Source of the DNA: Polyangium sp. 15x6
Lineage (GTDB): Bacteria > Myxococcota_A > Polyangia > Polyangiales > Polyangiaceae
Direction of reading: 5' to 3'
NCBI RefSeq assembly: GCF_029960785.1
Contig: NZ_JASBQE010000025.1
Span: 62,001 to 126,000 of the forward strand
Length of the DNA stretch: 64,000 nt
The notes beneath the pieces are model-generated. The model had not been told where the DNA came from, did not search any database, and saw only the letters and a list, made by a program, of their open reading frames with translations. Positions 47,772-55,027 of the stretch are shown here, piece after piece. The position numbers were made by a program, and so were the translations under genes. How positions within the stretch are numbered: position 1 is the first letter of the stretch; each line of letters begins with the position of its first letter.

Positions 47772-47884
47772 GGACTCCTCCCTTCGTGGCGGGGCCCATT
47801 GTACACAGCGCGGCCTTCGTGTCACCTGAAGAGTTTGGCGCAGCGAATGTGCAAATGACACATCGATGGGTCTCGGCTGGAACC

Positions 47885-48190
47885 GTGGAGCCGGGGCGCT
47901 GCCCCGGACCCCGCGGGGGCTGTTCGCCCCTCGACCCGAACCAGCGCAAGCGCTGGACCTTTTGTGGGAGAACTGCGCTCCGCGCAGTTCTCCCAGCAGG
48001 CCGGTGGGACCGCCTCGCCAGCCGAGACGTCAGCGCTGCTGTCTTGGTTGGCGAGATCGTCGCCGGTCTTGCCTCGGCCTGTGCGATGAACTGCGCGGAG
48101 CGCAGTTCATCGTCCTGGGTCCAGCCCCTGGCTGGTCCGGGTGCAGGGGCGGACAGCCCCTGCTGGGGCCTGGGGCAAAGCCCCAGCGAA
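47885..48190. repeat. Dispersed multi-hairpin element, copy 2
   Basis: This occupies most of the 542-bp gap between the divergent VOC and Rieske genes. Left arm: GCCGGGGC/GCCCCGG, GGGGC/GCCCC, CCAGCG-CAAG-CGCTGG, and the 13-bp stem GGGAGAACTGCGC with loop TCC (47966-47994). Linker of about 90 bp with GGCCGGTGGGAC and GTCAGCGCTGC. Right arm: CGATGAACTGCGC stem with loop GGA (48084-48112), CCCCTGG-type stems and a final GGGGCAAAGCCCC. The left end shares the ATGGGTCTC-type start with copies 1 and 4. Confidence 0.85.
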
Positions 48191-48313
48191 ACGGCCTCGA
48201 GATGAGTGCCAGAAGAGCGCTCCTTGACATGCGGCTCGGCTGTCCCGTCTACTCGAAGCGCGGCATTCCCGCATTGAATCGGCATTGCGGACGAAGGACG
48301 GAGACGACGTACG

Positions 48314-51586: not shown

Positions 51587-52615
51587 ATGCCCCACATCCG
51601 GATCGTCGAGGCCCACGAAGCGGACGCCCCCCTCCGCGCCGTCTACGATGCCATGTTGTCGCGTCCCATCCCCGCGGTCTACCGTGCGCCGCACGGCGGT
51701 CCGGCCGGCATCATCCGCGCGCACAGCCTCGACCCGGACCTCCTCCGGATCACCTTCGCCGCGACCGGCACGTTCCACCGGGGTGACGAGCTCTCCTGGG
51801 CGGAGCGCGAGCTCATCGCCGCGTCCGCCTCGCGGACGAACCAGTGCTTTTACTGAACGTCAGCTCACGCAGAGTTTCTGCGTGCCGCTTCTCAGGATGA
51901 GGACCTCGCCGCGGACGTCGTGACGGGGACCGACTTCGAGCGCGCTTCCCCGCGGCAGCGCGCCCTCGCCGGGTTCGCGGTCGTCATGACCGAGGCGCCG
52001 TGGTCCATCGACGCCGCCGATCTCGACCGCCTCCGCGCCGTGGGGTTGTCCGAGGACGGCGTCGAGCACGCCATCTGCGTCGCGGCGTTCTTCAACTACT
52101 ACACGCGCGTCGCGGACGGCACGGGCATCGCGTTCGATTACGACTCGCCGCTGCCGCGCCTCACCATCGATCCCACGCGCGAGGCCCTGCCGCGTCCGCC
52201 GCCGAGCGACTGGAACCCTGCCGTCGACGGCTCGCGTGTGCCCGTCTTCACCCGCCGCGCGTTTGCCCAGGGGCTCCTCGAAGAGTGGCACGCGTACCAC
52301 TTCGAGCGCGACGCGCTCCTCTCGCGCCGCGAGCGCCGGCTCCTCGCCCGCGCCGCCGCGGCCGAGTTGTGTGATGCCGGCGCGGTCGCCCGCTACGAGG
52401 ACGCGGCCCCGCGGGATCCTCGCGAGCACGCCCTCGCGGCGTACGCGACGAAGCTCACGCGCACGCCGTGGGCCGCCTCCGCCGAGGATGCGGCAGGGCT
52501 CCACGCACATGGCCTCGACGATCCCGCGATCCTCGCGGCCATCACGCTCGTCGCACACCAGAACACGTTTTCCCGCATGCATCATGGCCTCGCGGCGCTC
52601 GCGACATCCGGATGA
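51587..52615 (+). CDS. CMD/AhpD-like peroxidase-related protein with in-frame TGA (probable selenoprotein)
   Basis: The frame 51587-52615 holds 342 residues if TGA 51854-51856 is read as selenocysteine (residue 90). Upstream the text ends TNQCFY; downstream it continues in the same frame with TSAHAEFLR. The alkylhydroperoxidase/CMD motif is CxxC-x-H (family form CFYC-xx-H), so TGA stands where the second Cys belongs, giving CFYU (C87, U90). Nine nt after TGA is the hairpin CACGCAG-AGTTT-CTGCGTG (51866-51884), whose apical loop begins 17 nt after the codon and has G at its second base, as in bSECIS elements. The rest is a complete second CMD-like domain with AAFFNYYTRVADGTG. The alternative is a pseudogene. 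Confidence 0.82.
51866..51884 (+). promoter_or_regulatory. Candidate bacterial SECIS element
   Basis: A 7-bp perfect stem (CACGCAG/CTGCGTG) closes a 5-nt loop AGTTT, beginning 9 nt after the in-frame TGA of the CMD protein. The loop has G in its first two positions and starts 17 nt downstream of the codon, within the published range of about 16-37 nt for SelB-recognised bSECIS hairpins. It would direct Sec insertion if selB and selC are present elsewhere in the genome. Confidence 0.7.
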
Positions 52616-54631: not shown

Positions 54632-54684
54632 GCCGCCTTGTACCGCGAGGAGCGTTGCCCCGCACCCCAGAAGGGGGCTCCCCT

Positions 54685-55027
54685 TGGGGACGCCGCGCCG
54701 GGGCGCCGCCCCGGACCCCGCGGGGGCTATTCGCCCCTCGACCCGAACCAGGGCGAGCCCTGGACCTTTGGGGAAGAACTGCGCTCCGCGCAGTTCTTCC
54801 ACGGGCCCGTGGCAAGACCACGAGCGGCGTTGCCGGCCGAGGCGTCGACGCTGCCCCACGTCAGTGCTGCGGTTCGACTGGCAAGCCCGTCGCCAGTCTT
54901 GCCTCGGCCTGTTCGATGAACTGCGCATCGCGCAGTTCATCGACCCTGGGTCCAGCGCTTGCGCTGGTCCGGGTCCAGGGGTGGACAACCCCTGGTCGGG
55001 GTCCGGGGTGAAACCCCGGCGCTACGC
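54685..55027. repeat. Dispersed multi-hairpin element, copy 3
   Basis: This fills the 402-bp gap between the GNAT start and the end of the next minus gene. Left arm: GGGGC/GCCCC stems, CCAGGG-CGAG-CCCTGG (54748-54763, compensated relative to copy 1) and the GGAAGAACTGCGC stem with loop TCC (54772-54800). Linker with GTCAGTGCTGC and CTTGCCTCGGCCTG. Right arm: CGATGAACTGCGC with loop ATC (54914-54942), CCAGCG-CTTG-CGCTGG, CCAGGGG/CCCCTGG and GGGGT-GAA-ACCCC. It is preceded by GCCCCGCACCCCAG as in copy 1. Confidence 0.85.

Follow-up and report, generated by a model that had tools for sequence, protein, structure and literature searches.

The gene described here is located at 51587-52615, on the plus strand (as are all features below unless stated), of a 64,000-nucleotide stretch of the Polyangium sp. 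15x6 genome, denoted the window. Its reading frame begins with an ATG at 51587 and ends with a TGA at 52613-52615, 343 codons including the stop, and a second TGA, at 51854-51856, is the sole stop inside it. Around this codon the protein reads TNQCFY-U-TSAHAEFLR, which gives a C-F-Y-U motif with U standing for selenocysteine (Sec). An earlier note on this DNA had described the open frame with one TGA as well as the flanking TNQCFY and TSAHAEFLR, and our translation recovered both. Read-through translation yields a protein of 342 residues with Sec at position 90, whose start and length are kept in Polyangium relatives. As judged from the sequence evidence given below, the product of the gene is very probably a true selenoprotein belonging to the AhpD-like, peroxidase-related family (TIGR01926). 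The earlier note had proposed a probable AhpD-like selenoprotein; the proposal is supported, and those of its own tests that were run came out in its favour. A mechanical gene caller splits the gene at the catalytic residue; the present reading corrects the gene and adds a lineage of selenoproteins in myxobacteria.

To follow the codon across relatives, we searched 377 genomes of the phylum, which returned matches at E 1e-10 in 68. We confined the codon classification to the 30 best loci, of which 25, counting the window, carry TGA and the other five TGC. The earlier note had named homologues without Cys at this position as a finding that would speak against it; where these homologues lack TGA, they carry Cys. 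When 317 genomes of the class were searched with a profile, 22 gave matches at E 1e-25. Seventeen of these, window included and each from a different genome, are near full-length proteins made of two lobes; the remaining five are fragments or relatives with one lobe. All 17 have TGA at the Sec codon, over a range of identity to the window protein that reaches down to 36%. In three of the 17 genomes, the gene has the same sequence as in one of the three named Polyangium genomes. Within the genus, the proteins of Polyangium sp. 6x1, fumosum DSM 14668, sp. y55x31 and the genome G339 are 88-91% identical to that of the window and their genes share its TGA, and in the first three the nucleotide changes on both sides of the TGA are biased to third positions. 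The earlier note had also raised the prospect that resequencing would show TGC or TGT in place of TGA; TGA is kept in the separately sequenced Polyangium genomes, hence a sequencing error is very unlikely.

These data bear on the view that the locus is a pseudogene, an ordinary Cys peroxidase interrupted by a nonsense mutation or a sequencing error. TGA is one base away from TGC and TGT, TGC is what five of the 30 best loci carry, and one relative, L031, is truncated past the Sec region. Against this stand the TGA shared by all 17 two-lobed members down to 36% identity, a frame past the TGA that evolves with a third-position excess, and the frozen hairpin and the selA distribution described below; we consider a pseudogene extremely improbable. 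The codon could alternatively be a true stop, separating an 89-residue protein from a separately initiated protein of 231 residues that starts at GTG 51920. Both halves do exist as open reading frames (ORFs) and the mechanical caller reports two genes, but the first protein would break off within the catalytic motif, and the start of the second would come only past His94. Moreover, the residues HAEFLR, encoded between the TGA and GTG 51920, are invariant in the 17 aligned rows, and the structural model is one compact two-lobed chain, leaving two separate genes a very slim chance. Both the nonsense or sequencing-error reading and the split-gene reading were rejected on conservation.

Two relatives showed unusual arrangements. 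L031 (from genome G372 of the same family) keeps an intact Sec region and hairpin, but its frame ends soon after, the sequence beyond reading by eye like an unrelated ATPase; the gene looks truncated at a junction. On a single strand, L032 (genome G096) has two AhpD-like stretches, at 1651 and 2550, some 900 bases from each other; in both, the CxxU codon is TGA.

The earlier note had left open whether the genome holds selA, selB, selC (tRNA-Sec) and selD. All are present in the host genome (13.4 Mb, 98% complete): selA at 490 bits, selB at 318 bits in one frame and selD at 392 bits, each over its cut-off, and tRNA-Sec at 71 bits, over the gathering score, with the anticodon tca by ARAGORN. The end of the selB match and the tRNA-Sec gene, which lie on opposite strands, are 58 bases apart, and tRNA-Sec was found in all six genomes of the genus that were searched, host included. 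Among the genomes of the 30 best loci, selA is present in 25/25 with TGA versus 2/5 with TGC, against 241/377 overall (hypergeometric P for the 25/25 about 9e-6, uncorrected for kinship).

Downstream of the Sec codon, at 51866-51884, we noticed a putative bacterial selenocysteine insertion sequence (bSECIS), the hairpin CACGCAGA-GTT-TCTGCGTG, supported by folding, pairing and conservation. It can be drawn with 8 bp, a GTT loop and a spacing of 17 (-10.8 kcal/mol), or with 7 bp, an AGTTT loop and a spacing of 16 (-10.1 kcal/mol). The second drawing is the 7-bp stem with a 5-nt loop of the earlier note: CACGCAG-AGTTT-CTGCGTG indeed starts after 9 nt, with the loop at the 17th nt past the TGA. 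The bSECIS model, as set out in the Fig. 2 legend of PMC13188914, has an apical loop of 3-9 nt with a G in its first two positions, a stem of 4-16 bp, a distance of 16-37 nt to the UGA and a minimum free energy of at most -7.5; the window hairpin lies within all four of these constraints as that legend gives them.

The codons beneath the hairpin are nearly frozen. Over the 17 two-lobed members the HAEFLR codons (CAC GCA GAG TTT CTG CGT) are identical in 101 of 102 cases, the exception being one TTC, whereas positions elsewhere whose residue is shared by 16 or all of the 17 mostly use mixed codons. GCA, TTT and CGT are minority codons in the window genes, where they make up 6%, 14% and 9% of their synonymous sets. 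Pairing was counted over the 21 TGA loci (19 distinct rows) whose best hairpin loop starts 17-18 nt past the codon. Their stem is paired in 92.1% of cells, with two pairs changed on both sides, and the number of paired cells, the number of cells with a double change and the covariation score were each reached by 0/500 shuffles, a control that relatedness inflates. In the five TGC loci the hairpin columns are paired in 16/40 cells. The count omitted six TGA loci (L042-L045, L053 and L054), which at the 17-nt columns are paired in 31/48 cells. In addition, the string UGA-N9-CACGCAGAGUUUCUGCGU occurs in 13/377 genomes, once in each, and all 13 sites fall inside protein-search matches, while the reversed control gave 0. 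What exceeds chance is the TGA shared by all two-lobed relatives examined (TGC in five others), the frozen HAEFLR codons, the paired stem changes and the recurrence of UGA-N9-hairpin. As a separate observation, in the six omitted loci the best hairpin lies 24 nt past the codon rather than 17, and from these sequences the SECIS position seems to have moved within the family.

Several results weigh against the selenoprotein interpretation or limit it. The folding energy of the hairpin is by itself unremarkable, being reached by 210/5000 synonymous re-codings of the same residues and at 84/2979 codon positions of seven other window genes. The hairpin alone thus proves little, and we rejected it as stand-alone proof after the synonymous-shuffle control. 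The earlier note had argued that a chance nonsense mutation would be unlikely to carry such a hairpin; this argument carries less weight than the note gave it, as GC-rich genes like these contain such hairpins fairly often. Synonymous freezing is marginal within the five Polyangium-genus sequences alone (1/11 versus 96/254 codons, P 0.046), of the five pair measures, two do not stand out (doubly changed pairs reached by 18/500 shuffles, pair types by 397/500), and Rfam at the gathering threshold found no RNA family over the window. A second selenoprotein was not identified in the host genome among the matches to formate dehydrogenase alpha, the sole family tried, which lack a TGA. G292, another genome from the genus, encodes selA and tRNA-Sec yet gives no match to the window protein, and presumably the genus therefore holds other selenoproteins, none of which we identified. 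Finally, the substrate, the reductant and the role of the second lobe proposed below are drawn by analogy from relatives.

The residues surrounding the predicted Sec are strongly conserved. Sec90 (51854-51856) holds the second position of CxxU, and the first, Cys87 (51845-51847), is invariant in the 17 rows, as are Tyr89 (51851-51853) and His94 (51866-51868), the latter encoded by CAC in 17/17 and with its codon also within the hairpin stem. By the C-x-Y-x4-H spacing these three residues correspond to Cys125, Tyr127 and His132 of human Sestrin2. Glu75 (51809-51811), a proposed proton-relay residue, is likewise invariant and, by its spacing to the Cys dyad, corresponds to Glu74 of YP_296737.1.

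The protein comprises two lobes. The N-lobe (51587-52153, residues 1-189) is the active AhpD-like domain; it scores 144.2 bits against TIGR01926 (cut-off 81.8), and all 17 two-lobed members match that model at an E-value of at most 0.001. A linker (52154-52258, residues 190-224), mostly coil in the predicted model, leads to the C-lobe (52259-52612, residues 225-342), a degenerate AhpD-like domain without CxxC or catalytic helix according to hhalign and to DSSP on the predicted model. The C-lobe lacks CxxC in 17/17 members. Aligned with the N-lobe by hhalign it gives a probability of 98.1% with the CxxC stretch gapped, and alone it reaches 42.8 bits against TIGR01926 (E 4.8e-11), below the cut-off. 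The AlphaFold2 model, built from 17 sequences, is one compact two-lobed chain with a mean pLDDT (predicted local distance difference test) of 92 and a pTM (predicted TM-score) of 0.93. In this model DSSP assigns N-lobe helices at 71-84, 88-102 and 105-113, around the CxxU turn, and in the C-lobe a helix at 247-260 followed by just 264-269. The single-domain AhpD-like structures 2prr, 6k40 and 2oyo match model residues 1-191 with Z about 16 (VIA-align). By alignment and predicted model, the C-lobe is another AhpD-like domain, one from which the catalytic helix has been lost. The AhpD-like description in the earlier note was right as to family; it had missed the two lobes, the loss of the catalytic helix in the second, and the sestrin-like fold of the whole.

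AhpD-like selenoproteins are not new as a kind. As the earlier note had stated, they are on record: "AhpD-like protein, TIGR01926, CxxU" is listed among known prokaryotic selenoproteins in the part of PMC13188914 available to us, AhpD-like CxxU proteins were reported as new, with 27 sequences, from the Sargasso Sea set (PMC1088965, in extract) and they were reported again from the Global Ocean Sampling data (PMC2398784, in extract); because of these reports the kind of selenoprotein found here was already known. The window protein shares with AhpD-like CxxU selenoproteins (TIGR01926 / COG2128) the Sec in second position of CxxU, the downstream hairpin and a TIGR01926 score over the cut-off. 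As far as the extracts go, it alone has a second, catalytically empty lobe and a near-frozen 19-nt SECIS, and they hold no mention of a two-lobed form of the family. The architecture, a Sec-active N-lobe joined to a C-lobe without catalytic helix, does add something. Among the matches listed by a search of open-access papers, we found no two-lobed AhpD selenoprotein of this type and no sestrin-like selenoprotein. Among plasmids, distant matches turned up in 176 records, all of them spanning less than 80% of the query, and a search of phages found no match to the window protein.

Another two-part protein with a CFYUT motif, NF041238 AhpD_rel_CFYUT ("hypothetical protein 1" of the Sargasso Sea), differs in that its active half is C-terminal, whereas that of the window family is N-terminal. 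The window protein misses the NF041238 cut-off (82.9 bits versus 175), matching only model positions 215-336. In a tree of 48 rows, some of whose long branches were flagged, NF041238 is a clade separate from the window family with 100/100 support, and a branch with 93/97 support, found in 94% of bootstrap trees, sets the N-lobes of the 17 two-lobed members apart from all other rows. L026, L054-L058 and L060 (duplicates of other rows) and L031 and L069 (fragments) were omitted from the tree. A further AhpD-related model, NF053654 (YciW-related (seleno)protein), weakly matches one of the 17 members (4.3e-4) and does not match the window protein itself at E 0.001.

We compared the predicted model as a whole with known structures. 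The top Z-score in VIA-align belongs to human Sestrin2 (28.4 over 296 residues, 3.0 A, 15% identity), which aligns with model residues 15-342 and thus with both lobes. Foldseek, ranking by E-value, places the single-domain 6k40 first (9.8e-6) and Sestrin2 fourth (8.3e-5, TM-score 0.66 by query length). Sestrin2 is also the top match of a control model of NF041238 (Z 14.8 over 225 residues), and for this reason some sestrin likeness is general to fused AhpD pairs, as far as the two models tell; the contrast of 28.4 with 14.8 is indicative only, as the control has a pLDDT of 74.9 (9 rows) against 92 for the window model (17 rows). The window protein and Sestrin2 share the lobe order, an active site with C-x-Y-x4-H in the N-lobe and a C-lobe without helix-turn-helix. 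For the window protein, the deletion of this C-lobe helix is borne out on the predicted model and as a gap in the lobe alignment. Cys87, Tyr89, Sec90 and His94 stand at the spacing of the Sestrin2 residues, where Leu128 takes the place of Sec90. According to the available part of PMC4674687, Sestrin2 has Leu128 at the second Cys position and a C-domain without helix-turn-helix, and mutation of Cys125, Tyr127 or His132 brings alkyl-hydroperoxide reduction down to control level. On the basis of the predicted model, the sestrin-like shape of the window protein is well supported.

By sequence, the window protein is not a sestrin as defined by the Pfam cut-off or the DDYDY motif. It gives no match to PF04636 PA26 (gathering score 29.4 bits) even at E 10, and the DDYDY motif is absent from the C-lobe replacement loop in all 17 members, this loop being net negative in 15 and neutral in two. 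GATOR2 is not known from bacteria. PA26 weakly matches 4/17 members, below the cut-off, the best being L064 (20.6 bits, E 2.6e-4), whose match covers residues 37-226, spanning the linker and reaching from the N-lobe into the first helix of the C-lobe; those of the other three members stay inside the N-lobe. In hmmsearch with the family profile, Sestrin-2 chains reach E 3.9e-4 at best, in the N-lobe only. Across the 377 genomes no protein is over the PA26 cut-off, and the highest score, 29.1 bits, goes to L103 of genome G192, a TGC relative with a single lobe. The prokaryotic sestrin analogues treated in PMC11429811 (YciW, Corynebacterium, Comamonas, Rokubacteria) are, like the window protein, fused AhpD-like pairs. 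Where the available part of that paper places the pseudo-lobe of the Corynebacterium and Comamonas analogues at the N-terminus, that of the window protein is C-terminal and its helix is gone in the model; the same source gives the deletion of the C-domain helix, together with an electronegative hinge bearing a DDYDY-like motif, as the key difference of sestrins.

Could the window protein belong to the sestrin family, or be its sister, by descent and beyond similar architecture? The structural ranking against a lower-confidence two-part control, the common lobe order with C-lobe helix loss, the PA26 match of L064 reaching the first C-lobe helix and the N-lobe match of the Sestrin-2 chains all point that way. 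The PA26 signal is unspecific, though, since single-lobe L103 scores above the best two-lobed member; neither any member nor any of the 377 genomes reaches the cut-off, Foldseek prefers a single-domain AhpD, the C-lobe loops lack DDYDY, and other fusions of AhpD-like domains are known (PMC11429811). Sequence evidence for kinship is weak; common descent is possible, and we hold membership or sisterhood to be unlikely. It is similarly doubtful that, among living bacteria, the two-lobed selenoprotein of Polyangium and its class stands closest to the lineage from which eukaryotic sestrins arose. If it did, the lobes would have fused, and the C-lobe would have been silenced and stripped of its helix, before there were eukaryotes, and sestrins would derive from a CxxC or CxxU peroxidase whose second redox residue was lost (Leu128 in Sestrin2, Sec90 here). 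The origin of sestrins from AhpD-like peroxidases can now be tested through phylogeny, structural work and enzyme assays.

What the sequence itself shows are the signals for recoding, the machinery for it and the conservation of the catalytic residues; the product is most likely a selenium-containing, peroxide-destroying enzyme with a predicted two-part shape that resembles sestrin. In the mechanism we propose, SelB with Sec-tRNA would read the UGA at 51854 as selenocysteine, directed by the hairpin at 51866-51884, and Sec90 would be the redox-active partner of Cys87 in the CxxU pair. In Mycobacterium tuberculosis AhpD the nucleophile is the second Cys; Sec90 would likewise be the attacking residue and Cys87 would resolve, with Glu75, Tyr89 and His94 relaying protons. 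The N-lobe may thereby reduce organic hydroperoxides through a selenenylsulfide that a thiol reductant recycles, and the C-lobe may be a structural or regulatory half, making the protein a fused pseudo-dimer shaped like sestrin.

The genes upstream encode, by Pfam, glyoxalase-like, Rieske, methyltransferase-like and DUF2378 proteins. They recur only in the Polyangium-genus loci L018, L019, L020 and L101, not all of them in each, and five more distant loci (L097-L100 and L102) showed no neighbour match at E 1e-10 besides the selenoprotein, in a comparison that rests on a simple ORF caller. Since, over the loci compared, no neighbour recurs outside the genus, we propose no functional partner, and the neighbourhood was rejected as a functional clue. 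Just downstream, a cytochrome P450 gene (52846-54105 and 53075-54040) looks split over two frames; in L020 it is one frame of 398 residues with 91% identity, and no match was called in L018, L019 or L101. Similar segments are repeated at gene borders at about 47866-48205 and 54655-55011, and also in L017, as judged by eye from peptide strings, which suggests a dispersed repeat family in the host genome.
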